NCBI RefSeq assembly: GCF_003207895.1
Contig: NZ_NKUB01000003.1
Coordinates: 186,001-250,000, forward strand
Direction: 5' to 3'
DNA from: Komagataeibacter swingsii
Lineage (GTDB): Bacteria > Pseudomonadota > Alphaproteobacteria > Acetobacterales > Acetobacteraceae
Length of the DNA: 64,000 nucleotides
Shown here one piece after another: positions 13,123 to 38,992 of this stretch; within the stretch, counting starts at the first letter, position 1, and each line of letters opens with the position of its first letter. Below the pieces are notes generated by a model that saw nothing but the letters and a program-made list of their open reading frames with translations, did no database searches and had not been told where the DNA came from. A program made the position numbers and the translations under genes.

Positions 13123-14193
13123 TTACGTACGGACAAGGGCATCCTGGTCCGGGCCTATGCCTTTTGATGTTGGTTCATTATTGTCAAACCGGGCCAGGTA
13201 ATGCACGGCATGGGCGCGGTACAGGTCCAGCCCCTTGTAGGCGGACAGCGCGGGATCAAGGTCGCGCAGGACGCGATGCAGGCGGATGCGCCATTTATGG
13301 ACCAGTGCAATATCGCGCAGCGGCAGGAGATAGCAGCGCACCGCGAACAGGATGGCATTGGAACGTGGCAGCCGGAATAACGCCTGCAGTTCCACCCGCA
13401 GGTGCACCAGGTCCCTTGCGTTATCGCCGGTTACGCCCGCCCGGTCCCTGCCCCAGATGGTGAAATTTTCGGGGGATGTGTCAAGGCGCGGGTTGACTGT
13501 CATGGTCCAGTTCAGGCGGCGCACCGGCCTGCCATGCTGCAGCATCAGCAAAAATCGCAGCCCCCGGTCGAATATGCCCATTTCCCCCGCCTTGGGCACG
13601 GGGGCATGCCATTGCCCGAACGACATGCCCAGGTCGAACTTCAGGGACCAGTCCGCCTGGGATGTGACCATGCCGCCATCCATCCACAGGTCGTTATCCC
13701 TCTGGTCCTGCAGGGTGAAATCGCCCTGCATCTGCCGGGCCATGAATTCGAACGGCGCATAAGGCAGCGTGCCCGCATCCCCGAACACAAAATGCTGGTC
13801 GATATTCAGGGGGCGGTTGATCCAGCGCCATCGCGTGCCGTCGCGGGAGAGGTGAAACAGGTCGGGATAGTCTTCCGACAGGCTGCCCATGGCCAGTTCG
13901 ACGAAATCCCACTCCGCCGCGCGCATATGGGGCAGCACGATGCACCGTCCGGGGTCTTCGGACAGGATACGGGCTTTTTCCCGGCATTCCACGACATAAT
14001 GCTCGTCCACGTCGAAGGTGCGGCGCAGGGAATCAACCGCGCCCGCCTTTACATGTGGCTCGATATTCATGGAGTACATGTAGTGATCTTCAGGAAACGG
14101 GAACGGAAAGCGCAGGATCGCGGCATCGCTGTTCTCCATATGATAGGGCGCACGGTAACTGCCTGCCGACCTGAACCTGGTGTCGATGCTCAT
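13123..14193 (-). CDS. Heme-dependent oxidative N-demethylase, alpha subunit (DUF3445 family; dimethylamine monooxygenase type)
   Basis: Matches the DUF3445/HODM alpha-subunit family (segments RAPYHMENSDAAILRFPFP, WRWINRPLNIDQHFVFGDA, LPRSNAILFAVRCYLLPL). The described member uses a PAS-fold heme to oxidise an N-methyl group of a secondary amine, releasing a one-carbon unit. The start at 14193 (MSIDTRFRSAG) gives 356 aa; upstream codons back to 14232 would overlap the reductase gene end. It is the last gene of the delta-beta-alpha operon on the minus strand and follows the reductase by 28 bp. The substrate is most likely dimethylamine, judged by the complete methylamine pathway nearby. Heme ligands cannot be assigned by eye. 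Confidence 0.85.
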   Translation of the reverse strand: MSIDTRFRSAGSYRAPYHMENSDAAILRFPFPFPEDHYMYSMNIEPHVKAGAVDSLRRTFDVDEHYVVECREKARILSEDPGRCIVLPHMRAAEWDFVELAMGSLSEDYPDLFHLSRDGTRWRWINRPLNIDQHFVFGDAGTLPYAPFEFMARQMQGDFTLQDQRDNDLWMDGGMVTSQADWSLKFDLGMSFGQWHAPVPKAGEMGIFDRGLRFLLMLQHGRPVRRLNWTMTVNPRLDTSPENFTIWGRDRAGVTGDNARDLVHLRVELQALFRLPRSNAILFAVRCYLLPLRDIALVHKWRIRLHRVLRDLDPALSAYKGLDLYRAHAVHYLARFDNNEPTSKGIGPDQDALVRT

Positions 14194-14221
14194 GTTTTCT
14201 GCTCGCTGTCCAATTCGTTCC

Positions 14222-15175
14222 CTACAGGTCAAGGGTCAGTGTGGGTGACAGGGAGCGTGAAACGCAGGTCAGCATGACATCGCCGCTGTCGCGCTCGGCC
14301 CCAGTCAGCACATGGTCCCTGTGGTCCGGCCTGCCATTGATCACCCCCACGCGGCACATGCCGCATGCCCCGCCCCGGCACAGGCAGGGAGCGTCGATCC
14401 CCGCGTTTTCCAGTGCTTCAAGCAGCGTTTCATCCGCCCCGACCGTAATGGTTTTCCCGCTGCGTGCCAGCATGACCTCAAACACGCGACCGCCAGCGGG
14501 TGAGATAAAGCGTTCGGAATGGATCTTTGTCGCGGCGTATCCGACCGTGGCGGCGGTCTGGCGGACCCATTCCATGAACCCCCCCGGCCCGCAGACATAC
14601 AGGTGGGACGCAACCGGTTCGCGCGCCAGCAGCATGCGTAACGATGCAACCGCTTCCTGCCGCCCTTCATGCACCCGCACCCTTGACGGGTCGCACGGTG
14701 ACAGCATTGCCCTGAACGCGTCGGCTTCCTCCGGGCGCGTGTAATGGTGCAGGGCGTAATCCATGCCGTCCTTGCGCATTTCCGTCATGTAGGACAGGAA
14801 AGGCGTGATCCCGATGCCGGCGGAAATCATGATATGCCTGCGCCCGGTCCGGACAATCGGGAACAGGTTGGAAATGCCCAGGACCGAAACATTCAGTCCC
14901 GGCCCGCCATGCCGGTATAGAAAATCGGACCCCCCACGGGTGGGTTCGGCCCGGCGGACAATGATTTCCAGCGCGCGGCCATCTTCGGACCGGTTTACGA
15001 TGGAATAGGCGTTTTTCCAGGTGCGCTGCCCATTCCCGAAGGCGAAGACGCCATGGCTGCCGGGGGATATGGCGGGAAACGCGCCTTTTGTGCGCGACAC
15101 CACAAAACGCCGCAATGCAGGCGCCACCACATCGACGGAAGATATCGTGGCGGCATATCCAGTAGCCGGATTCAT
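14222..15175 (-). CDS. N-demethylase beta subunit: PDR/VanB-type flavin reductase with C-terminal [2Fe-2S]
   Basis: Electron-transfer subunit, 317 aa, passing electrons from NAD(P)H through flavin and [2Fe-2S] to the heme subunit. The N-terminal FMN-binding barrel includes RTWKNAYSIVNRSEDG. The nucleotide-binding domain includes ISAGIGITPFLSYM and LYVCGPGGFMEWV. The plant-type ferredoxin end has CRGGACGMC (C-x4-C-x2-C) and a fourth Cys in VMLTC. This domain order is that of phthalate-dioxygenase-reductase proteins and of the HODM beta subunit. It lies between the GcvT-like and heme subunit genes, which fixes its partner. Confidence 0.88.
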   Translation of the reverse strand: MNPATGYAATISSVDVVAPALRRFVVSRTKGAFPAISPGSHGVFAFGNGQRTWKNAYSIVNRSEDGRALEIIVRRAEPTRGGSDFLYRHGGPGLNVSVLGISNLFPIVRTGRRHIMISAGIGITPFLSYMTEMRKDGMDYALHHYTRPEEADAFRAMLSPCDPSRVRVHEGRQEAVASLRMLLAREPVASHLYVCGPGGFMEWVRQTAATVGYAATKIHSERFISPAGGRVFEVMLARSGKTITVGADETLLEALENAGIDAPCLCRGGACGMCRVGVINGRPDHRDHVLTGAERDSGDVMLTCVSRSLSPTLTLDL

Positions 15176-15235
15176 GTTACGGTCCTGACAGGGGATATAT
15201 CATCTTCACCCGCGCGCCTGCATTCATCGGGCATG

Positions 15236-16375
15236 TCAGTCCTTCACGGTTCTTTTGGTTTTTTTCGGATCATCAAACGGGAGCGAATGGGTGACGCCCC
15301 TGAGAACCCTTTCACCGGAATGCACTTCCATGGCGATGCCCGCCTGCGCGCAGGACGGCTCAAGCCGCGCCAGCGCCATTGACCGGTTGGTAAGGCTGGA
15401 GAACATGCCGCAGGTCACGACGCCAATCTTCCTGCCCTGCGCGTAGACGCCGTCCCCACCCTGCGCCACGTCCCGCCCTTCCAGCAGCAGGCCATATATC
15501 CTGATGCGTTCATGTCCTTTCAGCGCATAATGCGCCGCAGCCCCGCGGAAATCGGTTTTGTTCGGGCTGACAGTAAAATCCAGCCCCAGTTCCCACAGGC
15601 TGTCGCCGGCGGGTTCGTGGTCGAATGGATATGTTTCGGAATTGTCATAGGGATAAAACAGCAGGTAGCTTTCCACCCGCAGCAGGTCGAGCGCCGTAAA
15701 GCTGGTTGCCACGATACCCAGCGACCTGCCTTCCGCAAGGATCGTGTCCCATATCCGTGGCGCATCCTCCCCCTTGCAGAAGATTTCGTACCCACGCTCC
15801 CCCGTATAGCCGGTCCGCGATATCATGACCGGCGCGCCGAACAGGACAGTCTGCATGTGGTGGAAATACCTCAACTGCCGGATGCCCGGGACATGCCGTT
15901 CCAGGAAGTCGATGGCGACAGGCCCCTGTAGCGACAGGTCATGCAGGTCATCATCAAACAGAAGGCTGGCGTTCCGGCCCACGACCATGGCCGCCAGCAC
16001 TTCATGCAGCGCGCCCGCACCATGGACCACCATCCAGCTATTCGGGCCGGTACGATACAGGATGCAGTCGTCAATGAACCTGCCCTGGTCGTTCAGCACC
16101 GTGGCATAGGCCGAACGCCCCGGTGTGATTTTCCGCACATCGCGGGTTGTGGCGTAATTCAGTATCGCCGATGCATGGGGGCCGACCAGGTGCAGTTTTT
16201 TCAGGCCGGATACATCCATCAGGCCCGCGCGGGTGCGGATGGCGACATGATCATCCTGCACATCGCCATCATAGGTCCACGCGGTCGCCATGCCGTTCCA
16301 GTCTTCCAGCGCGGAGCCAAGGGCGGAATGCCGACTGGAAAGAGCACTATGACGCCAGCTATATGCCATGTTCAT
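15236..16375 (-). CDS. N-demethylase delta subunit: GcvT-like tetrahydrofolate-binding aminomethyltransferase
   Basis: GcvT/DmdA-family protein, 379 aa, expected to capture the formaldehyde-level carbon on tetrahydrofolate as 5,10-methylene-THF. Family segments are IRTRAGLMDVSGLKKLHLVG near residue 50, GYTGERGYEIFCKGE, and a C-terminal barrel (GVYAQGRKIGVVTCGMFS). Three ATGs are possible. The one at 16375 (MNMAYSWRHSALS) has an AGGGA site five bases upstream. It is first in the operon with the beta and alpha genes. The 38-bp element it shares with mgsA lies about 170 bp upstream. Confidence 0.85.
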   Translation of the reverse strand: MNMAYSWRHSALSSRHSALGSALEDWNGMATAWTYDGDVQDDHVAIRTRAGLMDVSGLKKLHLVGPHASAILNYATTRDVRKITPGRSAYATVLNDQGRFIDDCILYRTGPNSWMVVHGAGALHEVLAAMVVGRNASLLFDDDLHDLSLQGPVAIDFLERHVPGIRQLRYFHHMQTVLFGAPVMISRTGYTGERGYEIFCKGEDAPRIWDTILAEGRSLGIVATSFTALDLLRVESYLLFYPYDNSETYPFDHEPAGDSLWELGLDFTVSPNKTDFRGAAAHYALKGHERIRIYGLLLEGRDVAQGGDGVYAQGRKIGVVTCGMFSSLTNRSMALARLEPSCAQAGIAMEVHSGERVLRGVTHSLPFDDPKKTKRTVKD

Positions 16376-16546
16376 GTTTCCCTGCATGGGTGATGTTTTG
16401 TGCATGTGTGCGTTATTTCAGGATACATTGCGGATTGACCTGAAATATTGTTCCCGCCGTACCGCAGGGGCCTGTCCGTTTTGGCATGCCCTTATGTTTT
16501 ACTTGTCAATAATTCGCTCGCATCATAGGCGGGGGAATGGTGGAGC

Positions 16547-16732: not shown

Positions 16733-19114
16733 CTAGAAATGGGCGCTGACCGTGCCGAAATACTGGCGTATCGCCCCGCGTTCCATCGAATACAGATCCC
16801 CCGACATGGGATTGCCATTTTCGCCCATCATGGAAATGTATTTGCTGTTGGCCAGGTTATAGACGCTGAAATCGAATGTCAGGTTCTTCATGGGGCCGTA
16901 ATCACCAAAGCGATAACGCGCGCCCAATGTCACCAGCCAGTATGCGGGTACCGATGTGTCATTGGTATAGCTGTACTGGCGGCGTGAATAGTAGTTTGCG
17001 TCGATATGCGCTTCCATGCCACGGAAAGCATATGTCAGGTTTGATTTATACATGACCTGCGGATAGTTGACGATATTCTTCTTGTTGACGGAATAAAGCC
17101 GGCCACCGGATTCCAGGTCGCTGCCATATGTCGCGTGGTTGTAGCTGACGCTGTTGAACATCGACAGTCCCTTCATGACACCATGCTGGAAGGGATGCAG
17201 GGTCAATGCGGCATCCACCCCATACATGGAAATATCCGTGGGGGCGACGGACAGGATCGGGTTGTTCTGGTTGCCGGCATTGATTTCAAGCAGGTGATGG
17301 TAATCATTGACATGATAGGCATCGACCGAGAAATTGGCGTATCTGTCATTATACCGATAACCAACAAGATAGACCCAGTCACGTTCGGCCGGCGTGCTGC
17401 CCTGCAGCCTGCGGAATACCGACTGGTCCTGCACGGCCCATAGCGATGCCTGCCCGGCGGACCCCCATGACTGCACGCCATAGCCGCGCATGTTTTCAGC
17501 AACGTCAAAATACAACTCATGCCCGGGCAGGAAGCGCCAGTTGACGCTGACATGGGGCAGGAAGGCCGCGGCTGCGGTCATGCTGCCATTGGCCAGGGCC
17601 GATGCGCCGGTATAGGCTTCGTTATTATACTGCACGCCACCCGACGTGGTGGTTATGAGCGATTTGAAGCCCGCATGTATGTCCAGGTTGCGTATGGGGC
17701 GGTATGTATCGGACAGGAAATACTGGAACGTATCGGTTGTCCATTTGAAATCATAGGATTCCATGAACGCGCGGCCATAGACGTCATAGGGGCCGATCGT
17801 CTTCAGCGGCGCCAGGCCGCTGGCCAGCGAGGGTTCGTTATAGAAAAACTGCCCCATTTCCTGATTGTTGTTTTCCAGCCAGATGCCACTCTGGATGGTG
17901 TGGTGCGCGATGTTGTACTTGACCGAGGAGGTCATGCCATAACGGGCCTGGTGGGACTGCCAGACCTCCTCCGACAGGGGGGCGGCTTCGGTCGCGCCGG
18001 GCAGCACCTGTGACGAGACGGCTGGGTCGGCATAGGTTCCGTAAAGCACCTGGCTATTGGCGTAGAACAGGGTTTTCCAATGCAGGTTCCTGGTCATCGC
18101 CATGTCGAATGTCAGGCCGCCAAGGTAATTGACCTGGTGCTGGCCACCATCATACAGGTCGGCGCCGCCACCATATTTCTGGGCTTCGCGGTAGGCTTTG
18201 CCGTAATTCGGGTAAAGGTATTCGCTGCTCCAGCCGCCGTTCTGCACTTCGGTCAACGAAAGGTCGTAATAGGACCACTGGGAATTGTTCGACCAGCTCA
18301 TGAACCCGGCAATGCGGCTGTCCTGCCCGATGGGCTGCACGATCTTGGCTTCCGCCTGCTGCTGTAGCTGGTCGCCTGCCCCCTTCCATTTGTGTGTGTC
18401 GGAACGGGCATAGGAAATGTACATTTTGGTGCCGGTCCGGTTCATGGCGCCGGTATCAAACCGTCCATATGTGCGGAATGACGCATTGCTGCCGAACATC
18501 TGCGACACATCCCCGCCCATCCTGTCCGACGGGTCGGCGCTTGAAATCTGTATGGAGCCGCCAAGGTTGGTGGTGGACATGGTATCGACCGCCCCCCCAC
18601 CCTGGGACACCGACATGCCGGCGATATTGTTGGTGATGATGGCCTGCGACAGGTTTTCACCATTCAGGGTGCCATAGGACTGGTCGTTCAGCGGAATGCC
18701 GTCAAGCGAGATCCCGACGCTGTTCCAGTAAAAGCCGCGCATGTACAGGCTGCTTGACCATGCATCCAGCCCCAGCGCGTCACCGGAGCTGAAGCTCAGC
18801 CCCGGCGTGCGCGCCGACAGGACCTTCAGGGGATTGGTGCCGGGCACGAACTGCTGCATGACCTTCTGGCCCATGCGCTGTTCCGTGCCGGTGGAAATGT
18901 TCCGGCTGGTGCTGACCGACAGCGTTTCCGCCCTGGCCGACCGGGGGGATGCGGCGGCCGTGCGCGCGCGTGTTTCCCGTGCGCGGCTGCTTTCCCCCGG
19001 GGCCTGATTATGCCCCGACTGCGCAAGGGGCGCGGCGGTCGCCGCATGGCAGTCAAGGGACGTGGCTGCGAGAAGCAAGCCACAGAGAGGCAATTTCCGG
19101 ACCATATATTTCAT
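16733..19114 (-). CDS. TonB-dependent outer-membrane receptor
   Basis: Outer-membrane active transporter, 793 aa. The signal peptide is MVRKLPLCGLLLAATSLDCHA. A Ser/Arg-rich linker is followed by the plug (about residues 60-200: VLSARTPGLSFSSG, LYMRGFYWNSVGISLDGIPL, NLGGSIQISSADP). The beta-barrel ends in FGTVSAHF with a terminal Phe. No substrate is evident from the sequence. It lies between the N-demethylase operon and the Amt/APC/flavoenzyme operon, and carries the region's GTTTC-N6-GAAAC palindrome 180 bp upstream. A role in uptake of a methylated amine compound or its complex is possible but unproven. Confidence 0.9.
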   Translation of the reverse strand: MKYMVRKLPLCGLLLAATSLDCHAATAAPLAQSGHNQAPGESSRARETRARTAAASPRSARAETLSVSTSRNISTGTEQRMGQKVMQQFVPGTNPLKVLSARTPGLSFSSGDALGLDAWSSSLYMRGFYWNSVGISLDGIPLNDQSYGTLNGENLSQAIITNNIAGMSVSQGGGAVDTMSTTNLGGSIQISSADPSDRMGGDVSQMFGSNASFRTYGRFDTGAMNRTGTKMYISYARSDTHKWKGAGDQLQQQAEAKIVQPIGQDSRIAGFMSWSNNSQWSYYDLSLTEVQNGGWSSEYLYPNYGKAYREAQKYGGGADLYDGGQHQVNYLGGLTFDMAMTRNLHWKTLFYANSQVLYGTYADPAVSSQVLPGATEAAPLSEEVWQSHQARYGMTSSVKYNIAHHTIQSGIWLENNNQEMGQFFYNEPSLASGLAPLKTIGPYDVYGRAFMESYDFKWTTDTFQYFLSDTYRPIRNLDIHAGFKSLITTTSGGVQYNNEAYTGASALANGSMTAAAAFLPHVSVNWRFLPGHELYFDVAENMRGYGVQSWGSAGQASLWAVQDQSVFRRLQGSTPAERDWVYLVGYRYNDRYANFSVDAYHVNDYHHLLEINAGNQNNPILSVAPTDISMYGVDAALTLHPFQHGVMKGLSMFNSVSYNHATYGSDLESGGRLYSVNKKNIVNYPQVMYKSNLTYAFRGMEAHIDANYYSRRQYSYTNDTSVPAYWLVTLGARYRFGDYGPMKNLTFDFSVYNLANSKYISMMGENGNPMSGDLYSMERGAIRQYFGTVSAHF

Positions 19115-19887: not shown

Positions 19888-21222
19888 TCAGTCGCTGCCA
19901 ATCCTGTCTGTATGGTAGGCGACCTCGCCATGGGCGCCAAGGTCCAGCCCCATGGCCTCCTCATCTTCGTCGACCCGCAGCGGACAGACATGGCGCGTCA
20001 GCGCCAGGGACAGGTATGTCGTGACAGCCGATACCAGCACGCTGAAGGAAATGCCCAGTATCTGGATGCCCATCTGCCCCCATGGCGTGCGGCCGTGGGG
20101 ATAGCCCGTCCCCCCAAGAAAGGATGCGGCAAAGACAACGGTCAGCAGCCCGCCCGTGGCCGCGCCGACGCCATGGATTGAAAAGACATCGAAGGCATCA
20201 TCAAACCCGAAGCGTTTTTTCAGGTTGTTGACGGACCACAGGCAGGCCATACTTGTCATGGCGCCAATTGCCAGCGCCGCCATGGGGGCCACATAGCCGC
20301 ATGCCGGCGTAATCCCCACCAGCCCGGCTATGGTGCCGGAAATGATGCCCAGCGTACTCGGGCGGCCATGGCACCGCCATTCAGCCAGGCACCAGCCGAT
20401 CGCCCCGCCTGCCCCGCCGATCAGGGTATTGAGCATCAACAGGATGCCCAGCCCGTCGATCGCGTAATTGCAGCCGCCGCAGAAAGCCAGCCAGCCCACA
20501 AAAAGCAGGCATCCGCCCGTATAGGTCATGCTGACGTCATGGGGGGCCATATGCGTGGTGCCCAGTCCGTGCCGCCTGCCCAGCATGATGGCGGCGACCA
20601 GTCCGGCCACCCCGGCATTGAGGTGGACGACATTGCCCCCGGCAAAATCCTGTATGTCCAGCGGGGCGATCCATCCCCCGCCCCACGCCATATGGGCCAT
20701 GGGCACGTAATTGATGAAAAACCATATTGATATGAATATGACAAACGCGCTGAAGCGCATGCGTTCGGCAACCGACCCGACAATGATCCCGACCGTTATG
20801 GTCGCGAACAGGGCCATGAACAGGCAGTAAAGATATTCCGGCAGGCTGCCCGTGGCGCTTTCCACCGTAATGCCACGCAGGAACATCCTGCCAGACCCGC
20901 CTATGACCGGCTGCAACGGGCCTTTGCTGAATATGAGCGAGTAGCCGGCGATCATCCACAGGGCGATGATGAACACCCCGGATGAAAAGACCTGCGTCAG
21001 GACGGACAGCACATTCTTGCTACGCGCCATCCCCCCGTAAAACAGGGCCAGCCCCGGCAGCAGCATCAGCATGACGACAAGACTGCACATCGCAACGAAC
21101 GTGGTGTCAGCAAGGCTGTAGGCATGACCGGGCCGGGCGGTGCTGGCGTTCCCCACCGCCGGGAACAGGACGGGCGTAAGGAATACATGGAAAAGCAGAA
21201 TGATATATCGATGGTATGCCAT
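19888..21222 (-). CDS. amtB: Ammonium transporter (Amt family)
   Basis: Inner-membrane ammonium channel/transporter, 444 aa with a cleavable-looking N-terminus (ILLFHVFLTPVLFPAVGNAS) and eleven hydrophobic segments. Family marks include LPGLALFYGGMARSKNVLSV near residue 55, and the pore twin-His pair in NVVHLNAGVAGLVAA and DVFSIHGVGAATGG. The preceding Asp is in QDFAGG. It lies 29 bp after an APC permease and two genes after the TMADH-like enzyme, so it is likely expressed with methylamine catabolism. It could recapture ammonia or carry methylammonium, a known Amt substrate. No glnK gene is beside it. Confidence 0.93.
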   Translation of the reverse strand: MAYHRYIILLFHVFLTPVLFPAVGNASTARPGHAYSLADTTFVAMCSLVVMLMLLPGLALFYGGMARSKNVLSVLTQVFSSGVFIIALWMIAGYSLIFSKGPLQPVIGGSGRMFLRGITVESATGSLPEYLYCLFMALFATITVGIIVGSVAERMRFSAFVIFISIWFFINYVPMAHMAWGGGWIAPLDIQDFAGGNVVHLNAGVAGLVAAIMLGRRHGLGTTHMAPHDVSMTYTGGCLLFVGWLAFCGGCNYAIDGLGILLMLNTLIGGAGGAIGWCLAEWRCHGRPSTLGIISGTIAGLVGITPACGYVAPMAALAIGAMTSMACLWSVNNLKKRFGFDDAFDVFSIHGVGAATGGLLTVVFAASFLGGTGYPHGRTPWGQMGIQILGISFSVLVSAVTTYLSLALTRHVCPLRVDEDEEAMGLDLGAHGEVAYHTDRIGSD

Positions 21223-24724: not shown

Positions 24725-24846
24725 GCGGCGTCCCGATCGGTGGGCGCGGGCCTGTCCCATGTGGGCGGTTTTGGTGCGCCTGCTGTCCCGCAGGGGTGTT
24801 TCTGGAAAAGCGCTGACATCGCTGATTATAACCCTCTCCACATTTA

Positions 24847-24866
24847 ATGTTACTTGTATGAAACAT
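24847..24866. promoter_or_regulatory. ATGTTAC-N6-GAAACAT palindrome upstream of the TMADH-like operon
   Basis: Seven-base arms ATGTTAC and GAAACAT (one mismatch) around TTGTAT, about 120 bp before the chosen start codon. Same design as 19294, 25065 and 31386. Confidence 0.5.
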
Positions 24867-26602: not shown

Positions 26603-26679
26603 CACCACAATATCCGTATTCAGTATATTTGAAAAACACGAAGGGGGGCGCGCCCTGCGCGGCGTTGCTCCCTGTGGTT

Positions 26680-28017: not shown

Positions 28018-28024
28018 GGTGGCC

Positions 28025-29607: not shown

Positions 29608-29666
29608 CGTCATTCTCCGCCGAGATAGGAAAGGATGCGCCCATCAAGCGCCCATCCCGGCGGGGT

Positions 29667-30364: not shown

Positions 30365-30389
30365 GCATGCTCTCCAGAAAACGCAAGAA

Positions 30390-31361
30390 TCAGGACAGGA
30401 CGTCCATCTGATCGGCAAAGGCGGGAAAATAGCCCGCCAGTTCGCCACGTGTCTGCTCCATAAGAACAGTCCGGAGTGATTTCGCAAAATCCAGCGGCAG
30501 GCGCCCGAATTCCCGCCGCCGCGCCACCAGCGTCAGCCGCCGCCGGAACGTGCCCACCGGCAGCCTGTGGCATGTCAGCCCGCAATGGCCGTCAAACCCC
30601 GCCTCATACAGGCATAGCGGCGTCGTGATGGCCACGCCCCCCAGCCTGCACGCGGCCAGGACCCCCTCGGGCCGGTCGAATTCCTGGCCATGGGGGATGT
30701 CCAGCTTCAGCCGCCGCAGGTAGCGTTCGATCTCGTTGCCCGTGCGTGAGCGCAGGGAAAAGCGCACGAACGGCCGTTCGGTGAAAAAGGCGGCCAGGTC
30801 CGCGGCCGATGCCGGGGGGCTTACGCCTGCGGGGCACAGCAGCATGTAGGGTTCCTCGAACAGCGGCCAGCGTTCGAGGTCGGCGATGTCTTCCAGGTCA
30901 TCGACGCTGAGGATGAAATCGATCTGGCGCGACAGCAGGGCGGCGGCGTGGGATTCGGTCAGGCCGGCATGCACCACCAGGCGGTCGACGCGCGCGCGCA
31001 TGAAGCTGGAGACTTCCCCCATCACGGCGCGCGACAGGGAATCGACCACGCCGATCCGCAGCAGGTGGACCCTTCCCGACTGCATTTCCTGCAGGCGGGC
31101 GGCGATCTGGCGCATCTCGACCATAAGCCCGGTGGCGTACTGGCGCAGCACCGTACCGGCGGTTGTCAGCGCCATGGGGCGCACCCCCCGGTCAAACAGT
31201 TGCGTGCCCACGCGTTTTTCCAGGTCGGCGATGGTCTGTGAAACGGCGGGCTGGGTTATGCCCAGCATGCGCCCGGCCGCCGCCATGCTGCCATTGTCGC
31301 ACACGGCCAGGAAGACATTCAGTGCGGAAAAATCGAACGGTGGAACATGAAGCGCCATCAT
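30390..31361 (-). CDS. LysR-family transcriptional regulator
   Basis: 323 aa. The winged-helix N-terminus (FDFSALNVFLAVCDNGSMAA, GITQPAVSQTIADLEKRVGT) precedes a LysR substrate-binding domain. The start at 31361 is one of two adjacent ATGs (MMALHVPPF). It is divergent from mgdA, with 82 bp between start codons, the usual layout of a LysR gene and its target. The palindrome at 31386-31406 lies exactly in that gap. Inducer unknown; an intermediate of the N-methylglutamate pathway is the natural guess. Confidence 0.9.
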   Translation of the reverse strand: MMALHVPPFDFSALNVFLAVCDNGSMAAAGRMLGITQPAVSQTIADLEKRVGTQLFDRGVRPMALTTAGTVLRQYATGLMVEMRQIAARLQEMQSGRVHLLRIGVVDSLSRAVMGEVSSFMRARVDRLVVHAGLTESHAAALLSRQIDFILSVDDLEDIADLERWPLFEEPYMLLCPAGVSPPASAADLAAFFTERPFVRFSLRSRTGNEIERYLRRLKLDIPHGQEFDRPEGVLAACRLGGVAITTPLCLYEAGFDGHCGLTCHRLPVGTFRRRLTLVARRREFGRLPLDFAKSLRTVLMEQTRGELAGYFPAFADQMDVLS

Positions 31362-31385
31362 ACCATACCATAAGAAAAATTTATA

Positions 31386-31406
31386 ATGTTCCTGTGCCGA
31401 AACCAT
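31386..31406. promoter_or_regulatory. ATGTTCC-N6-GAAAC operator in the LysR/mgdA divergent promoter
   Basis: ATGTTCC-TGTGCC-GAAAC followed by CAT. It matches the perfect copy at 25065 at 15 of 21 positions. It lies 38 bp before mgdA and 25 bp before the LysR start, a position suited to control of both. Confidence 0.5.
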
Positions 31407-31443
31407 CTAGCATGGATTTCAGTAACGGATTGAAGATTTCGTA

Positions 31444-32703
31444 ATGAAAAATGATCGTTATTCCATTTTTTCCCTGCTGCGGGAAACATTGCGCGGCCAG
31501 ACCGGCTGGAAACCCGCATGGCGCGACGCCACCCCCCAGCCCAGCTATGATGTCGTGATCGTGGGCGGCGGCGGCCATGGGCTGGCCACCGCCTACTACC
31601 TTGCGCGGCGTTATGGCGTCCGCCGGGTGGCGGTGGTCGAAAAGGGCTGGATCGGCAACGGCAACATCGGCCGCAATACGACAATCATCCGTTCGAATTA
31701 CCTGCTGCCGGGCAACGTGCCCTTTTACGAATGTTCCATGAAGCTGTGGGAAGGGCTGGAACAGGACATCAATTACAACGCCATGGTCAGCCAGCGCGGC
31801 GTGCTCAACCTTTTCCATAACGACGCCCAGCGCAACGCCTATATCCGCCGTGGCAACGCCATGCGGCTGCATGGTGTGGATGCGCAGCTTCTGGATGTGG
31901 ACGCCGTGCGCCGCAGGCTGCCGTTCCTGAATTATGACGCGGCGCGCTTTCCCATACGCGGCGGCCTGCTGCAAAAGCGCGGCGGCACGGTCCGCCACGA
32001 CGCGGTGGCGTGGGGATACGCGCGCGCGGCCGACCGGCTGGGCGTGGACATCATCCAGAACTGCGAGGCCACCGGCCTGCGCATGCGCGAGGGCCGTGTC
32101 GTGGGGGTCGAGACCACGCGCGGGTTCATCGGCGCGGGGCGCGTCGGGCTGTCCTGCGCGGGCAATTCGTCGCGGGTCGCGGCCATGGCCGGGCTGCGCC
32201 TGCCAATCGAAAGCCACGTGCTTCAGGCCTTTGTCAGCGAGGGGCTGAAACCCTTCATCGACTGCGTGGTGACGTTTGGCGCGGGGCATTTCTACATCAG
32301 CCAGTCCGACAAGGGCGGGCTGGTATTTGGTGGCGATATCGATGGCTACAATTCCTATGCCCAGCGCGGGAACATGCCGGTCATCGAGGATGTGTGCGAA
32401 GGCGGCATGGCGCTCATGCCCCGGATCGGTCGCGTGCGCCTGCTGCGCCACTGGGCGGGATTGATGGACATGACCATGGATGGCAGCCCCATCATCGACA
32501 GGACGCCGGTGGGCAACCTCTACCTCAACGCCGGGTGGTGTTACGGCGGGTTCAAGGCCACGCCCGCGTCAGGCCTGTGCTTCGCCCACCTGATCGCCCG
32601 CGACGAACCCCATCCGGTGGCCGCGGCCTACCGGCTGGACCGCTTTGGCCGCGGGGCCGTGATTGATGAAAAAGGCATGGGCGCGCAGCCCAATCTGCAC
32701 TGA
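31444..32703 (+). CDS. mgdA: N-methylglutamate dehydrogenase subunit A (sarcosine-oxidase beta-like)
   Basis: SoxB-type FAD/FMN subunit, 419 aa, oxidising the N-methyl group of N-methylglutamate. The FAD-binding motif DVVIVGGGGHGLATAYYLA spans about residues 37-55. Further SoxB segments are KGWIGNGNIGRNTTIIRSNY, RWAGLM-type LRHWAGLMDMTMDGSPIID, and LYLNAGWCYGGFKATPASG near the end. It is first of mgdABCD-purU-folD-gamma and follows the LysR/mgdA promoter. A sarcosine oxidase is the alternative reading, but gmaS and mgsABC next door decide for MgdA. Confidence 0.9.
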   Translation: MKNDRYSIFSLLRETLRGQTGWKPAWRDATPQPSYDVVIVGGGGHGLATAYYLARRYGVRRVAVVEKGWIGNGNIGRNTTIIRSNYLLPGNVPFYECSMKLWEGLEQDINYNAMVSQRGVLNLFHNDAQRNAYIRRGNAMRLHGVDAQLLDVDAVRRRLPFLNYDAARFPIRGGLLQKRGGTVRHDAVAWGYARAADRLGVDIIQNCEATGLRMREGRVVGVETTRGFIGAGRVGLSCAGNSSRVAAMAGLRLPIESHVLQAFVSEGLKPFIDCVVTFGAGHFYISQSDKGGLVFGGDIDGYNSYAQRGNMPVIEDVCEGGMALMPRIGRVRLLRHWAGLMDMTMDGSPIIDRTPVGNLYLNAGWCYGGFKATPASGLCFAHLIARDEPHPVAAAYRLDRFGRGAVIDEKGMGAQPNLH

Positions 32704-32710
32704 GGTTCCA

Positions 32711-32995
32711 ATGCGTCTGAACTGTCCCTGCTGCGGACCACGCGGCGTTGAAGAATTCACCTATCGGGGCGACGCCACACTCCGTCGCCCTGCCCCCGAT
32801 GCCGCAGCGCCGGACTGGGTGGACTATGTCTACCTGCGCGACAACCCGGCGGGCTGGCACCGTGAACTGTGGTACCACGGCGCGGGCTGCCATGCGTGGC
32901 TGGTCGTCACGCGCGACACCCGCACCCATGAAATCGCCGATGTGGCCCGTGCGGTCGATATCGCACGCCACGGCAGGGAGAATACGGGGTCATGA
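32711..32995 (+). CDS. mgdB: N-methylglutamate dehydrogenase subunit B (sarcosine-oxidase delta-like)
   Basis: Small zinc-binding subunit, 94 aa. The SoxD motif MRLNCPCCGPRGVEEFTYRG gives Cys5, Cys7 and Cys8, and HGAGCHAWLVV carries the later His/Cys ligands. The segment DYVYLRDNPAGWHRELWYH is typical. It lies 7 bp after mgdA and overlaps mgdC by four bases. Confidence 0.92.
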   Translation: MRLNCPCCGPRGVEEFTYRGDATLRRPAPDAAAPDWVDYVYLRDNPAGWHRELWYHGAGCHAWLVVTRDTRTHEIADVARAVDIARHGRENTGS

Positions 32996-35900
32996 CACTG
33001 TTTGGCAGGAAAACGGCAGCCGCCCCGCGCACGGGTGGCGGCAATGGCGTCGACCCGGCGCGGGTCATCCATTTCACCTTCGATGGCGTGCGCTATCCCG
33101 CCCATCCGGGCGATACGCTGGCATCGGCCCTGCTGGCCAACGGGCAGCGGCTTGCAGGCCGGTCGTTCAAGTACCACCGCCCCCGTGGCATCCTGTCGGC
33201 AGGACCGGAAGAACCCAACGCGCTGGTGGAACTGCGCACCGGCGCGCGGCGCGAACCCAACAGCCGCGCCACCGTGACCGAGGTGTATGACGGGCTGGTG
33301 GCCTGCAGCCAGAACCGCTGGCCATCGCTGCGCATGGATGCGCTGGGCGTAAACGGCCTGTTTTCGCCCATCTTTACGGCCGGGTTCTACTACAAGACCT
33401 TCATGTGGCCCGCCCCGTTCTGGGAAAAGGTGTACGAACCCCTGATCCGCCGCGCCGCCGGGTTGGGGCGTGCGGCGGATGAGGCCGACCCTGACCTGTA
33501 TGAAAAGGCCACCACATTCTGTGACGTGCTGGTGGTGGGCAGTGGCCCGGCAGGGCTTGCGGCCGCCCTTGCGGCGGGACGGTCGGGCGCGCGGGTCGTG
33601 CTGTGCGAACAGGACAGCGTGACCGGCGGCCGCCTGCGCGCGGAGCGGGGCGAACTGGACGGCGTGCCGGGCTGGCAATGGGCACGGCAGGCCATGGACA
33701 GCCTGCGCCAGATGCCCGAGGTGCGCATCATGACGCGCACCTGCGTTTTCGGGGCGTATGATGGCGGGACCTATGGCGCGCTGGAACGCGTGGCCGACCA
33801 TGTCGCCATGCCTGCGGCGGGGCAGCCGCGCCAGCGCCTGTGGCGTATCGTGGCGGGGCGCTGCATTGTCGCCAGCGGCGGGATCGAACGCCCCATGGTG
33901 TTTGTGGGCAATGACCGGCCGGGCATCATGCTGGCGGGCGCGGTGCGCACCTACATCAACCGCTTTGGCGTGGTGCCGGGACGGCGCGCCGTCATCTACA
34001 CCAATAACGATGATGGCCTGCGCACGGCAACGGACCTGGCCCATGCCGGCGCGGTGGTCGCCGCCATTGTCGATACGCGCGCCACGCAGACCGCGCGCGC
34101 CACGCAGGTTGCGCGGGAAACCGGGGCGAAGCTGTTCACCGGCGGGGCGATTGCCGCCACATACGGGCGGCTGGGGGTGCAGGCCGCCGCCATCCGCGAC
34201 CGTTCGGGCCGGGTACAGCACATTGCATGCGACCTGATCGCCATGTCGGGCGGATGGAACCCCGAACTGAGCCTGACGACGCATCATGGCGCGAAGCCGT
34301 CCTACAACGCGGCGCTGTGCGCGTTCGTCCCCACCACCTTCCCGCCCGGCATGCAGGCGGCGGGTGTCGCCAACGGGGCCTTCACGACGGCTGCCTGCCT
34401 GCGCGAAGGCGCGGAACAGGGGCAGGCGGCCGCGGCCGCCTGCGGGTTCGCCGCCGACCTGCCGGCCCTGCCCGCGGCGGACGCGGAAAGCTACGGCATT
34501 GAATCCCTTCAGCCCCTGCCGCGCGACCGCTCGGTCAAGGATGGCAAGGCCTTCATCGATTTCCAGAACGACGTGACGGCCAGGGATGTGCGGCTGGCGG
34601 CGCAGGAAGGCTTCCGCAGTGTCGAGCACCTCAAGCGCTACACCACGCTTGGCATGGCGACTGACCAGGGCAAGACGGCCAATGTCAACGGTATCGTGCA
34701 ACTGGCGCAGCAGACCGGCCGCGACATTGCCAGTACGGGCACGACCATGTTCCGCCCCCCCGTGCAGCCCGTGGCCATTGGCGCCATCGCGGGCGCGCAT
34801 ACCGGCACGCATTTCAAGCCCACCCGCCTGACGCCCACCCATGAATGGGCGCGCCAGCAGGGCGCGGCCTTTACGGCCAACGGTCTGTGGCAGCGCGCGC
34901 AGTGGTTCGCGCAACCGGGAGAAAGCCACTGGCGCGACACCGTCAACCGGGAAGTCCGCACCGTCCGCACCGCTGTCGGGTTCTGTGATGTCACCACGCT
35001 GGGCAAGATCGACATCCAGGGGCCGGACGCCGCGACCTTCCTTGAACGGCTGTATGTCAACGCATGGCGGAAGCTGCCGGTCGGCCGCGCGCGCTACGGC
35101 CTGATGCTGCGGGAGGACGGCTTCGTCTTTGACGATGGCACCACCGCGCGGCTGGGGCCACAGCATTATGTCATGACCACGACTACCGCGCATGCGGGCG
35201 CTGTCATGCAGCATATGGAACTGTGCCACCAGTGGCTGTGGCCGGAACTGGATGTCCACTTCATATCCGTGACCGACGAATGGGCGCAGTTCGCCATTGC
35301 CGGGCCGCGCGCGCGCGATGTGCTGCGCCATGTCGTCGATCCGGATTTCGACCTGTCGCATGAAGCCTTCGGGTATATGGGTGCGGCGGAGGTCACGATA
35401 TGTGGCGGGCAGGCGGCGCGGCTGTTCCGCCTGTCCTTCTCCGGGGAACTGGCGTTCGAGCTTGCGGTGCCCGCGCGTTATGGCGACGCGCTGGCCCGCC
35501 TGCTGATGAAGGTGGGCGCGCCGTATGGCATCGCCCCTTACGGCACCGAGGCGCTGGGGGTGATGCGCATTGAAAAGGGCCATCCCGCCGGACCCGAGCT
35601 GAACGGCCAGACCACGGCGCATGACCTGGGCATGGGGCGGATGCTGTCCGGCAAAAAGGACTTCATCGGCCGCGCCATGGCCGCGCGCCCTGCGCTGACG
35701 GATGCATCCCGTCCCACGCTGGTCGGCCTGCGGCCGGTCAGCCCGTCCGATGAACTGGTGGCCGGCAGCCACCTGCTGCCCCGTGGCGCCGAAGCCACGG
35801 GCGCGCATGACCAGGGATGGATATCGTCCGCCGCATGGTCGCCCACGCTGGATGGCTGGATCGCGCTGGGCTTCCTGTCGGATGGCCCGGCGCGCCATGG

Positions 35901-36003
35901 CGAGACGGTCATGGTCCACAACCCGCTGGCCGGCAGCGTCGTCGCGGCGACGGTAGGCCCGCCCGTATTCCTTGATCCTGAGGGAGCACGCCTGCATGTC
36001 TGA
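32992..36003 (+). CDS. mgdC: N-methylglutamate dehydrogenase subunit C (sarcosine-oxidase alpha-like)
   Basis: Large subunit, 1003 aa. The N-terminal ferredoxin-like domain (LASALLANGQ, SFKYHRPRGILSAGPEEPN) precedes an NAD/FAD domain with LVVGSGPAGLAAALAAGRSG (about residue 180). A second dinucleotide site lies further on (GRRAVIYTNNDDGLRTATDL). The C-terminal third is GcvT-like (GKIDIQGPDAATFLERLYVN, FIGRAMAARP), which would pass the methyl carbon to THF as 5,10-methylene-THF. Length and domain order match heterotetrameric sarcosine oxidase alpha. It overlaps mgdB by four bases and mgdD by eight. Confidence 0.92.
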   Translation: MTLFGRKTAAAPRTGGGNGVDPARVIHFTFDGVRYPAHPGDTLASALLANGQRLAGRSFKYHRPRGILSAGPEEPNALVELRTGARREPNSRATVTEVYDGLVACSQNRWPSLRMDALGVNGLFSPIFTAGFYYKTFMWPAPFWEKVYEPLIRRAAGLGRAADEADPDLYEKATTFCDVLVVGSGPAGLAAALAAGRSGARVVLCEQDSVTGGRLRAERGELDGVPGWQWARQAMDSLRQMPEVRIMTRTCVFGAYDGGTYGALERVADHVAMPAAGQPRQRLWRIVAGRCIVASGGIERPMVFVGNDRPGIMLAGAVRTYINRFGVVPGRRAVIYTNNDDGLRTATDLAHAGAVVAAIVDTRATQTARATQVARETGAKLFTGGAIAATYGRLGVQAAAIRDRSGRVQHIACDLIAMSGGWNPELSLTTHHGAKPSYNAALCAFVPTTFPPGMQAAGVANGAFTTAACLREGAEQGQAAAAACGFAADLPALPAADAESYGIESLQPLPRDRSVKDGKAFIDFQNDVTARDVRLAAQEGFRSVEHLKRYTTLGMATDQGKTANVNGIVQLAQQTGRDIASTGTTMFRPPVQPVAIGAIAGAHTGTHFKPTRLTPTHEWARQQGAAFTANGLWQRAQWFAQPGESHWRDTVNREVRTVRTAVGFCDVTTLGKIDIQGPDAATFLERLYVNAWRKLPVGRARYGLMLREDGFVFDDGTTARLGPQHYVMTTTTAHAGAVMQHMELCHQWLWPELDVHFISVTDEWAQFAIAGPRARDVLRHVVDPDFDLSHEAFGYMGAAEVTICGGQAARLFRLSFSGELAFELAVPARYGDALARLLMKVGAPYGIAPYGTEALGVMRIEKGHPAGPELNGQTTAHDLGMGRMLSGKKDFIGRAMAARPALTDASRPTLVGLRPVSPSDELVAGSHLLPRGAEATGAHDQGWISSAAWSPTLDGWIALGFLSDGPARHGETVMVHNPLAGSVVAATVGPPVFLDPEGARLHV

Positions 36004-36601
36004 TCTCCTGCCTGCCACCGCCCCCTTTCCGCCAGCCGCCTTTACGCCGCCCCCGGGCGCGCAGGCTGCCCGTGTCACCATCGCGCCCGCGCCGTCGCGC
36101 CAGCTTGTCAGCCTGCAATGCGCCCCCGGCGCGCGCACGGCGGTCCAGGCGGCCCTGAAGGCGGCCTACGGCGTGGAGTTGCCCGTGACCCCCGCCGCCA
36201 TGACCGGCCGCGACGGGGTGTGCTTCATATGGTCGGGGCTGGACCAGTGGCTGGCCAGCGCCCCGGATGGCGCGCCCGACCTCGCCACCGCCCTGCGCGA
36301 TGTCACCCACCCCCACGCGGCCATTACGCGGCAGGGCGACGGGCGCGCCACGGTGCGGGTCAGCGGCCCGGATGCGCGCGCGATCCTGTGCAAGCTCGTG
36401 CCCATCGACCTGCATCCGCGCGCATTCGGGCCGGGCAGTACGGCGCTGACCCTTGCGGGCCATGTCCCGGTCCAGATCCTGCGGCAGGACATGGCGCCCA
36501 CATACGATATTTTCGTTTTCCGCAGCCTTGCGCACAGCCTTCACCACGACCTTTGCCACGCGGCATGTGGCGGCGTGCCTTTATCGGAAATGTCCACATG
36601 A
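35996..36601 (+). CDS. mgdD: N-methylglutamate dehydrogenase subunit D (sarcosine-oxidase gamma-like)
   Basis: SoxG-type small subunit, 201 aa. The first 30 residues are Pro/Ala-rich. Family segments follow: [73 protein letters not shown]. It begins eight bases inside mgdC and overlaps purU by four, so all six genes from mgdB to purU are tightly coupled. Confidence 0.88.
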
Positions 36602-37470
36602 CCAGTAACGTCAATACAACCTACATCGTGACCATAAGCTGTCCCAACCGGCCCGGCATTGTCGCGGGTATCAGCCACGGCCTGGCCGAACTGGGGGCGA
36701 ACATTACCGAAGCCCAGCAGTTTGACGAGACCGAAAGCCGGCGGTTTTTCATGCGTATCGTCTTTGACATACCGCAGGGCGCGACGGACAGGCCGGTACT
36801 CGAAAACGAATTCAGCCGCCTGGCCCGCGAATTTTCAATGGCGTGGTCGCTGACGACCACGAGTGTGCGGCCAAAAGTCCTGATACTGGTTTCCCGGTTT
36901 GACCACTGCCTGGTGGACCTGCTGTACCGCTGGCGCATCGGGGAACTGGCGATTGACCCGGTGGGGATCATTTCCAACCACCCGCGTGAGATCTACAGGC
37001 ATCTGGACCTTGATGGCATACCCTTCCATTACCTGCCCATAACCCCCGCGACCAAGCCGGAACAGGAAGCCCGCATCATCCGGATCATGGAAGAAAGCGA
37101 TGCCGAACTGGTCGTGCTGGCGCGTTACATGCAGATCCTGTCCAACGAACTATCGCGCAAACTGTCGGGGCGGTGCATCAACATCCATCACTCCTTCCTG
37201 CCGGGGTTCAAGGGCGCGCGGCCCTATCACCAGGCTTTTGCCCGTGGCGTCAAGCTGATCGGGGCAACAGCGCATTACGTGACAAGCGACCTGGATGAAG
37301 GGCCGATCATCGAACAGGATGTCGAACGCATTTCCCATGCCGACACCCCCGATGACCTTGTGCGCAAGGGGCGTGACATCGAACGCCGCGTCCTGGCGCG
37401 CGCCGTCCGCTACCATATCGAACGGCGCGCCATCATGAACGGGCACAAGACAATCGTATTCACATCCTGA
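36598..37470 (+). CDS. purU: Formyltetrahydrofolate deformylase
   Basis: Hydrolyses 10-formyl-THF to formate and THF, 290 aa. The N-terminal ACT domain (residues 8-85: [20 protein letters not shown]) precedes a formyltransferase-fold domain with [20 protein letters not shown]. The catalytic set is Asn and His in [20 protein letters not shown] and Asp in [16 protein letters not shown]. In this operon it would release the one-carbon unit as formate and recycle THF for the demethylases. Confidence 0.95.
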
Positions 37471-37487
37471 ACCCGTGACGCCCTGAT

Positions 37488-38396
37488 ATGGAACACCATG
37501 ACATGCCCGTGCGCACAGCACCGGGAAAACTGATTGACGGCCGGGCCTTCGCGGCTGGCATCTGCACCGAAATCGCGCGCGAAGTCAGCGACCTGCACGC
37601 CCGGCATGACCGCGTGCCGGGCCTTGCGGTGATCCTGGTGGGGGACGACCCGGCCAGTGACATCTATGTGCGCAGCAAGGTGCGCAGGACCATGGCGGTG
37701 GGCATGCGCTCCTTCGCCCATCGCCTGCCTGCCGCGACATCGCAGGTGGCGCTGCTGGACCTGGTCGCCACGCTGAACGCGGATGGCGACGTGCATGGCA
37801 TACTGCTCCAGCTTCCGCTGCCCGGCCATATCGACGTAAAGGCGGTTCTGGACGCCATTGACCCGGCCAAGGATGTCGATGGCTTCCATATCGTCAACGT
37901 GGGCAAGCTGGGCGTGGGGCGCGATGACGGGTTCATCCCGTGCACGCCGCTGGGGTGCCTCATGCTGCTCAGGGCCGAACTGGGCGACCTGTCGGGGCTG
38001 CATGCGGTGGTCATCGGGTGTTCCAATATTGTCGGCCGGCCCATGGCGCAGCTTCTGCTGCGGGAAAACTGCACGGTTGTCGTCACCCACATCAATACCC
38101 GCGATGTCGCGGCGGAAACCCGTCGGGCCGATATTGTCATTGTCGCCGCCGGCCATCCCGGCCTTGTGCGCGGGTCATGGATCAGGCCGGGCGCGACAGT
38201 AATTGACGTGGGGATCAACCGTATCCATGATGATGCGGGCAGCCATGTTGTGGGGGATGTCGCCTTTTCCGAAGTCCGCGCCGTCGCGGGCGCGGTGACG
38301 CCCGTTCCCGGCGGGGTGGGACCGATGACCATCGCCTGCCTGCTGCACAATACGCTGCGCGCGGCACGGGCCGTAATCGAGAATGCGAAAACCTGA
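37488..38396 (+). CDS. folD: Methylenetetrahydrofolate dehydrogenase/methenyl-THF cyclohydrolase
   Basis: Bifunctional enzyme, 302 aa, oxidising 5,10-methylene-THF to 10-formyl-THF. Motifs: [16 protein letters not shown] (catalytic Tyr and Lys), [13 protein letters not shown], the dinucleotide loop [16 protein letters not shown] and [11 protein letters not shown]. It starts 17 bp after purU. Its place beside mgd and purU suggests a dedicated copy for methylamine carbon; a housekeeping folD elsewhere in the genome would confirm that. Confidence 0.94.
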
Positions 38397-38476
38397 ACCG
38401 CACGTTCCTGCCGTGACCTGCCTGTCAGGTCGGCCATGGCAGGGGTAATGTGACCGTACCGGGGGAGAATGCGCAC

Positions 38477-38992
38477 ATGACGGATAGTAGCCTTCCATGC
38501 CGGCGACTGCGTTTTGACATGACGGGAACACGTCATCTCTTTATCAGGCAGGACCCGGACTGCCCCCTGCCCGATGGCGGGGTTCCGGCGGCTTTTGCAA
38601 TCTGGACCGTCCGGCGGCAATGTGACGTGCTGCCCGACGGGCAGGCGCGGGAGGGGTTTTTCCGCTCCGTTTCCCACATGCTGGAACAGCTTGCCTGCCG
38701 GCTGGAAACCGAACGGGTCGGATTGCGGGTCTATGCCGCGGGCAGCATCCAGTTCATGGGCGATGTCGCGCGGGTTACGGATGGCGCGGGGCTGGGCGCG
38801 GCGGAGGTCTTTCTGGATACGCCCCGCTCCCCTGCCCGCCGGGTCATGTGCATTCACTGCGACACCATGCACGAAAACGTGACCCGTGATGAACTGACCT
38901 GCCATGGCTGCCGGGCGGCCCTGTCGGTCCGTACGCATTTTTCACGTCGTATCGGCGCGTATATGGCGGTGTCCGAAACCGGGGCCTGTTGA
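38477..38992 (+). CDS. Probable N-demethylase gamma subunit (DmmA-like, C-terminal zinc ribbon)
   Basis: 171 aa. The C-terminal half has CIHCDTMHENVTRDELTCHG with a following Cys (C-x2-C and C-x2-C), then VRTHFSRRIGAYMAV. This resembles the DmmA-like small subunit of dimethylamine monooxygenase/HODM. The N-terminal half is unremarkable. The start at 38477 follows a GGGGGAG site. It lies 80 bp after folD in the mgd operon, while the alpha, beta and delta genes are 22 kb away. The call rests on the zinc-ribbon motif plus genomic company. Confidence 0.7.
   Translation: MTDSSLPCRRLRFDMTGTRHLFIRQDPDCPLPDGGVPAAFAIWTVRRQCDVLPDGQAREGFFRSVSHMLEQLACRLETERVGLRVYAAGSIQFMGDVARVTDGAGLGAAEVFLDTPRSPARRVMCIHCDTMHENVTRDELTCHGCRAALSVRTHFSRRIGAYMAVSETGAC

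Follow-up and report, generated by a model that had tools for sequence, protein, structure and literature searches.

A predicted catabolic locus for dimethylamine and methylamine, with a split dmm operon, in Komagataeibacter

Can an acetic acid bacterium make use of dimethylamine and methylamine? The question is raised by a 64,000-nucleotide stretch (the window) of a 3.73-Mb Komagataeibacter genome (Komagataeibacter swingsii, GCF_003207895.1, contig NZ_NKUB01000003.1, positions 186,001 to 250,000), in which genes for a dimethylamine monooxygenase (dmm) accompany those of the N-methylglutamate pathway. An earlier analysis of the DNA letters (the sequence-only reading) had reported gmaS, mgsABC, mgdABCD, purU, folD and the alpha, beta and delta subunits of a heme-dependent N-demethylase (we take the Greek letters to be the subunit names of that enzyme) in a probable acetic acid bacterium. 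When the block proteins were searched against NCBIfam and Pfam profiles with curated cut-offs, every named family was recovered as an intact frame, most of them over these cut-offs. The assignment to acetic acid bacteria is borne out as well: the genome belongs to Komagataeibacter, with K. diospyri MSKU 9 (91% identity in GmaS) as its closest named relative, followed by K. intermedius, K. oboediens and K. saccharivorans, and then by Acetobacter. Very probably, this is a catabolic locus through which dimethylamine would be converted to methylamine, N-methylglutamate and glutamate, the one-carbon (C1) unit leaving as formate.

Dimethylamine monooxygenase and N-methylglutamate pathway genes

On the minus strand, from left to right, the block carries dmmC, dmmB, dmmD, a TonB receptor gene, amt, an APC permease gene, an OYE-like gene, gmaS, mgsC, mgsB, mgsA and the genes of an XRE-cupin and a LysR regulator; after the latter, mgdB, mgdD, mgdA, mgdC, purU, folD, dmmA and two flavin adenine dinucleotide (FAD) oxidoreductase genes follow on the plus strand. 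The dmm genes are listed here with their ratios of nonsynonymous to synonymous substitution rates (dN/dS) against K. diospyri.

13123..14232, minus: dmmC, putative heme-containing alpha subunit (HODM alpha); PF11927, 218 bits; 92% identical to K. diospyri; dN/dS 0.066
14222..15175, minus: dmmB, reductase subunit with a 2Fe-2S domain; PF00111 and PF22290 over cut-off; dN/dS 0.145
15236..16405, minus: dmmD, GcvT-like tetrahydrofolate-binding subunit, predicted to capture formaldehyde; PF01571, 201 bits; dN/dS 0.073
38450..38992, plus: dmmA, fourth subunit, apart from dmmDBC; NF041259, 88.1 bits (cut-off 60); dN/dS 0.285

DmmC is probably the heme subunit because residues 19-351 of its 369 align with a solved heme-dependent oxidative N-demethylase, 5lte (430.7 bits), which presumably comes from Pseudomonas mendocina. 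Its true start probably lies slightly inside the frame, since the K. diospyri match begins at residue 12. DmmA also exceeds the cut-off of PF22289 (66.6 bits against 27.4) and falls just under that of PF22290 (31.1 against 33), and its CxxC...CxxC motif is kept in all nine aligned sequences (from 12 dmmA genes). The naming follows PMC5520151, which places the GcvT domain in dmmD and describes dmmC as the subunit most conserved across species. All four subunits are encoded: a PF11927 alpha subunit homologous to the heme enzyme, the reductase DmmB, the GcvT-like DmmD, and DmmA. The earlier claim of three subunits therefore stands as far as it goes, a fourth completing the enzyme (the end of dmmA, 38992, is also the end of the range then delimited); the operon, however, is split. 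The usual, though not obligatory, single dmmDABC operon was not found: dmmDBC lies at 13123-16405 and dmmA at 38450, about 22 kb away, on the opposite strand and past the gmaS-mgd core, a layout shared with K. diospyri. For homologous DmmABC, conversion of dimethylamine to methylamine has been reported, which favors the same conversion as the predicted activity of the window enzyme.

The genes downstream in the predicted route are the following.

25274..26707, minus: gmaS, gamma-glutamylmethylamide synthetase; TIGR03105, 628.8 bits (cut-off 469.6); 602.6 bits to 7cql
26680..28080, minus: mgsC, N-methylglutamate synthase subunit; PF01645, 305.6 bits
28025..28711, minus: mgsB, N-methylglutamate synthase subunit (GXGXG); PF01493, 44.5 bits (cut-off 32.5)
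28708..29613, minus: mgsA, glutamine-amidotransferase subunit of N-methylglutamate synthase; PF13522 and PF13537 over cut-off
31444..32703, plus: mgdB (soxB-like), N-methylglutamate dehydrogenase subunit; TIGR01373, 702.1 bits (cut-off 529.45)
32663..32995, plus: mgdD (soxD-like) subunit, start approximate; PF04267, 109.2 bits, over cut-off; TIGR01374, 103.8 bits, below 116.5
32992..36003, plus: mgdA (soxA-like) subunit with a tetrahydrofolate-binding GcvT part; TIGR01372, 1356.4 bits (cut-off 1164)
35972..36601, plus: mgdC (soxG-like) subunit; PF04268, 31.5 bits (cut-off 21); TIGR01375, 92.4 bits, below 143.95
36118..37470, plus: purU, formyltetrahydrofolate deformylase; TIGR00655, 324.6 bits (cut-off 285.95)
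37488..38396, plus: folD, methylenetetrahydrofolate dehydrogenase/cyclohydrolase; NF010785, 426.4 bits (cut-off 396)

Besides exceeding the TIGR03105 cut-off, the window protein carries GmaS rather than glutamine synthetase residues. In the alignment with 7cql (offset of 20 for the tag), all 14 positions named in the available text of PMC7948447 are identical (K30, A48, E122, E124, Y147, Y174, D177, E179, E186, H235, W300, R312, R317, and E325). Among these, the same text gives D177, E186, and R312 as catalytic, places Lys30 in the methylamine site and states that W300 and A48 occupy the positions of Glu and Asp in ordinary glutamine synthetase. Stops were reported inside three of the five Komagataeibacter GmaS matches; that of K. 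diospyri falls at codon 12 of the extended frame, and a shared Met follows at codon 36, which for this reason probably marks the true start (about 26602). Similarly, purU probably starts near 36600, because its family match begins at frame residue 166-170. Linkage to gmaS is seen for both mgsABC and mgdABCD, and neither set lacks a subunit; the soxD- and soxG-like parts score below NCBIfam and over Pfam cut-offs. As sox-type models do not separate N-methylglutamate dehydrogenase from sarcosine oxidase, the identity of mgd rests on this linkage. A second folD, 59% identical, lies elsewhere in the genome.

Compared with K. diospyri, 23 block genes have dN/dS values of 0.039-0.322 (some frames overlap) and are under purifying selection. 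The highest values are those of a FAD monooxygenase gene (41592-43439; 0.322) and dmmA; two additional genes beyond the block give 0.449 and 0.254.

In the proposed route, DmmABC would demethylate dimethylamine oxidatively to methylamine and a formaldehyde-level C1 unit, which DmmD would load onto tetrahydrofolate. GmaS would then join methylamine to glutamate, MgsABC would turn the product into N-methylglutamate, and MgdABCD would regenerate glutamate while releasing methylenetetrahydrofolate; FolD and PurU would finally bring the C1 unit to formate. The sequence-only reading had proposed the same pathway, and family membership, linkage, GmaS residues, DmmA cysteines and purifying selection all argue for it. 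Since the nitrogen ends in glutamate, these amines would likely serve as a nitrogen source, which was also the safest part of the earlier proposal. The genome has no match to formate-tetrahydrofolate ligase (PF01268), so that C1 assimilation through this enzyme is not indicated. No protein reaches the TIGR01591 cut-off for formate dehydrogenase (the single-subunit type dependent on nicotinamide adenine dinucleotide was not searched for); the best match to the formate dehydrogenase model is a protein of the FdhF/YdeP family. For these reasons, use as nitrogen is likelier and better supported than use as carbon, and growth on these amines as carbon is not supported.

Several points weigh against the proposed route, including the lack of a recognized formate dehydrogenase. 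The literature disagrees on how far DmmD is required, judging from the accessible parts of PMC5520151 and PMC4543880. With dmmA on the strand opposite to dmmDBC, expression of all four genes together is uncertain; dmmA also belongs to the less constrained part of the block. In addition, trimethylamine monooxygenase (tmm) was not recognized in the genome, where two short FMO-like matches were found (35.8 bits over 201 bases, over the Pfam cut-off of 22, and 18.6 bits), and tdm was not searched for genome-wide; dimethylamine would thus have to come from outside or by some other route.

Distribution and arrangement in acetic acid bacteria

The genus sample comprised 19 Komagataeibacter genomes and the family sample 200 genomes, the present genome being counted in both; locus counts refer to the best 80 of 375 confirmed gmaS candidates from a genome scan. 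The GmaS query matches some glutamine synthetase in all 19 Komagataeibacter genomes, and a true GmaS (85-100% identity) is found in five: the present genome, K. diospyri, K. intermedius, K. oboediens and K. saccharivorans. In the family sample, GmaS exceeds its cut-off in 23 genomes, and the C-terminal domain of DmmA occurs in five, each of which has GmaS; calculated by hand for independent draws, the chance of this is about 1e-5, but these genomes are related. PF11927 was rejected as a marker of dimethylamine use, as it is present in 55 of the 200 genomes and DmmA in just five.

Among the 80 loci, 78 have mgsABC with gmaS and 17 are labelled as acetic acid bacteria: Komagataeibacter (4), Acetobacter (10), Gluconacetobacter (1), Nguyenibacter (1), and Asaia (1, a metagenome-assembled genome). 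In a GmaS tree of 81 rows, 16 of these 17 rows and the window make up a single 17-row clade (100/96), within which the five Komagataeibacter group together (99/96). The Asaia row falls outside the clade and may be mislabelled; the placement of the Nguyenibacter row, which has a long branch, is unsure. Because the GmaS of acetic acid bacteria form one clade, gmaS looks like an old, patchy trait of this group. The methylamine part is not special to the window genome, given its presence in 5/19 Komagataeibacter and in named Acetobacter, Gluconacetobacter and Nguyenibacter strains. As a side observation, two of the ten Acetobacter loci come from a single strain, A. estunensis LMG 1626, where they lie on separate contigs; their GmaS fall in different parts of the acetic acid bacterial clade.

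A search for the same block in other Acetobacteraceae, a check suggested by the sequence-only reading, thus gave a divided answer: the gmaS core is found in several genera, but among the four Komagataeibacter relatives only K. diospyri has dmm at the locus. That reading had also been unaware of any account of such a trait from acetic acid bacteria. Our literature search (titles and abstract openings) is consistent with this, with none among the matches listed; most subscription journals were outside the search, so that a growth test of earlier date may have been missed.

Within the block, DNA homology with K. intermedius and K. oboediens is limited to 25276-37468 (gmaS to purU); with K. saccharivorans it extends, gapped, from gmaS to folD, and with K. 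diospyri from 13123 to 43436 with small gaps. Accordingly, dmmDBC, the four intervening genes, dmmA and its two neighbors are common to K. diospyri only among these four relatives. Both gmaS-free Komagataeibacter genomes looked at (2 of 14) lack PF11927 and DmmA. An observation apart concerns K. intermedius: on the side where the window has the OYE-to-dmm genes, no more than 8 kb from gmaS, it carries another glutamine-synthetase-like gene as well as one for a Rieske oxygenase (L109:17011-19775), possibly a different amine branch.

In other genera, dmmD, dmmA and dmmB are contiguous in all ten dmmA loci (L033, L046, L053, L054, L061, L079, L118-L121). In eight of them dmmC follows dmmB, four of these being cut by the locus end; L054 ends within dmmB, and L053 (Nguyenibacter vanlangensis) has dmmC elsewhere. 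In the latter, dmmDAB stands behind gmaS and an intact dmmC frame lies apart (G215:C8:16473-17489, L136), which makes a second, different dmm split. Gluconacetobacter tumulisoli, whose DmmD is 79% identical to that of the window, has dmmDABC directly after gmaS. Given this order and the contiguity in other genera, the Komagataeibacter layout looks derived, with four genes lying between gmaS and dmmD and dmmA apparently shifted behind folD. Moreover, as dmm is split in two different ways in two genera, a single operon seems not to be strictly required.

Companion genes, regulators and chromosomal site

Between gmaS and dmmD (16733-24898), between mgsA and mgdB, and behind dmmA, the block contains genes outside the two pathways.

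16733..19114, minus: TonB-dependent outer-membrane receptor; PF07715, 30.5 bits (cut-off 23.9); 95% identical to K. diospyri
19888..21222, minus: Amt/AmtB-family ammonium, possibly methylammonium, transporter; TIGR00836, 379.6 bits (cut-off 343.3)
21252..22700, minus: APC-family permease, distantly resembling a trimethylamine N-oxide permease; PF13520 over cut-off; NF053774, 116.1 bits (cut-off 690)
22766..24898, minus: Fe-S flavoprotein of the OYE/2,4-dienoyl-CoA-reductase family; PF00724 and PF07992 over cut-off
29711..30487, minus: XRE-cupin regulator; PF01381 and PF07883 over cut-off
30390..31406, minus: LysR-family regulator; PF00126 and PF03466 over cut-off
39161..40678, plus: 2Fe-2S/FAD oxidoreductase resembling the soxA N-terminus; PF13510 and PF07992 over cut-off; 87% identical to K. 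diospyri
40675..41838, plus: DAO-family FAD oxidoreductase (soxB-like), possible partner of the preceding gene; PF01266, 195.4 bits; TIGR01373, 222.5 bits, below 529.45

Uptake would likely be the task of Amt and the APC permease. In 6/80 loci, all from Acetobacter, gmaS is followed at a distance of at most 0.5 kb by the start of an amt gene (42-61% identical), and in a seventh by that of one with 25% identity. As for the candidate regulators, an XRE homolog occurs in 62 of the 80 loci, in 48 of them on the same strand and at most 2.5 kb upstream of mgsA; a LysR homolog occurs in 13, of which 11 are from acetic acid bacteria. At 2099-3517, a further regulator gene combines a helix-turn-helix with IrrE-like peptidase and short-chain fatty acyl-CoA regulator domains.

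The nearest PDB entries to the OYE-like protein are 2,4-dienoyl-CoA reductase and NCR, which we take to be 2-naphthoyl-CoA reductase; trimethylamine dehydrogenase scores lower. This last identity was rejected, the protein having Asp at the flavin-cysteine position and a CxxCxxxC spacing instead of CxxCxxC (the cysteine presumably carries the covalent flavin, and CxxCxxC is presumably the cluster motif). In three of five plasmid neighborhoods, relatives of the OYE-like gene are found near genes for a FAD oxidoreductase, a small cupin and an ABC transporter. Other neighborhoods hold a FAD oxidoreductase, a cupin and a succinate-semialdehyde dehydrogenase (Rhodococcus), or a cupin and proline-racemase-type genes (Paracoccus). 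The gene after dmmA probably starts later than listed (its GTG sits directly before a repeat copy), and in one Shinella neighborhood its relatives stand beside an ABC transporter, a FAD oxidoreductase and an aldehyde dehydrogenase. Collectively, these neighborhoods hint at another amine substrate.

The site itself contains dispersed repeats with a 27-base core (3639-3665, 19598-19624, and 39186-39212), two of them inside the block region. The core has 20 matches with at most two mismatches in the present genome and occurs in 13 of the 19 genus members; none was found in K. diospyri, K. oboediens or K. saccharivorans. A repeat-driven displacement of dmmA was considered and rejected: the repeats at 19.6 and 39.2 kb fall in gaps of the K. 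diospyri alignment, yet K. diospyri has the same gene order. A plasmid origin was likewise rejected: in the plasmid collection, 80% of the block is nowhere found together within a single record, and the best of the matches listed covers 13% at 75% identity. A resolvase gene (44789-45370) lies just past the block and is also present in K. diospyri, about 12 kb further from the block end. Cytochrome bd genes (PF02322 and PF01654; 54618-57215) are 17 kb past purU in the window and about 3 kb past it in K. intermedius and K. oboediens, and could mark one chromosomal site. They are a weak yardstick, however, because the window copy resembles those of two gmaS-free genomes (96 and 94% protein identity) more than that of K. 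intermedius (89%) and the present genome has another copy (84%); several genus members have at least two. Further on, a stretch of lower G+C content (58076-61673) contains two neighboring GmrSD-type restriction-endonuclease-like genes, with a possible role in phage defense.

Alternative explanations and comparison with known systems

It could be argued that only the methylamine half of the locus works, the split having disabled or starved the dimethylamine monooxygenase, so that methylamine from other N-methyl compounds is what the locus serves. The distance and opposite strand of dmmA would fit, as would the lack of dmm at this locus in three of the five gmaS-bearing Komagataeibacter. However, the dN/dS values of the four dmm genes and the four cysteines kept in DmmA count against such decay, and the N. 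vanlangensis operon, also split and with an intact dmmC frame, indicates that a split may be tolerated in related bacteria; we regard this explanation as improbable. An import of the block from a methylotroph, recent and possibly ill-adapted or silent, is very unlikely. Its patchy distribution (5/19 Komagataeibacter), the nearby resolvase gene, the dispersed repeats and flanks unlike those of K. diospyri are compatible with such an event, which is nevertheless weakened for gmaS by the single acetic acid bacterial clade (with the Nguyenibacter row unsure). Moreover, the DNA identity of the core to K. intermedius (82.8%) is close to that of the cytochrome bd operon (82.3%), to be read with the reservation on this yardstick.

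A main substrate other than dimethylamine, another N-methylated amine handled by the APC permease, the OYE-like protein and the two FAD oxidoreductases, with Mgd and Dmm finishing the products, is doubtful. The restriction of the companion genes to K. diospyri among the four relatives and the recurrent plasmid neighborhoods of the OYE-like gene speak for it, as does the participation of Mgd in homarine breakdown mentioned in the available part of a 2026 paper (PMC13390433); the missing flavin cysteine and cluster spacing of trimethylamine dehydrogenase speak against it. In the same vein, and just as tentatively, the APC permease, the OYE-like flavoprotein and the FAD pair might form a second, undescribed N-demethylating or amine-oxidizing branch. 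In this Komagataeibacter lineage, the methylamine pathway would then be a hub for several N-methyl compounds of fruit or fermentation, and the split of dmm a rewiring by which DmmA is made together with N-methylglutamate dehydrogenase.

The reading that we retain, a catabolic locus for dimethylamine and methylamine, involves enzymes of known kinds, with a gmaS part that is widespread but patchy in acetic acid bacteria. What is new is the apparent absence of the trait from the literature searched, the split dmm operon and the companion genes lacking an explanation. It predicts a simple nutritional trait: bacteria used industrially for vinegar and cellulose would be able to draw nitrogen from dimethylamine and methylamine. 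Collection strains allow an immediate test, as gmaS is carried by named Acetobacter, Komagataeibacter, Gluconacetobacter and Nguyenibacter strains. If the prediction is true, amines from food and plants have a further sink in acetic acid bacteria, and the split operon becomes an example of how an oxygenase of four subunits copes with the separation of its genes.

Compared with the N-methylglutamate pathway of alphaproteobacterial methylotrophs and Roseobacters, the window has all eight genes (gmaS, mgsABC, and mgdABCD) together with folD and purU; folD-purU pairs are also carried by Paracoccus aminophilus, according to the accessible text of PMC4543880. Unlike that pathway, it stands in a genome without formate-tetrahydrofolate ligase. 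Its putative regulators are of the XRE-cupin and LysR types, whereas Ruegeria pomeroyi uses the AraC-type TmaR (PMC13390433, available part). The OYE-like protein aligns with trimethylamine dehydrogenase over both domains, with the cluster spacing of 2,4-dienoyl-CoA reductase. Finally, all four subunit families of the DmmDABC systems of R. pomeroyi, Methylocella silvestris and P. aminophilus are present in the window; in contrast to these systems, and to the ten loci of other genera in which dmmD, dmmA and dmmB are contiguous, dmmA is relocated away from dmmDBC, past gmaS-mgd.

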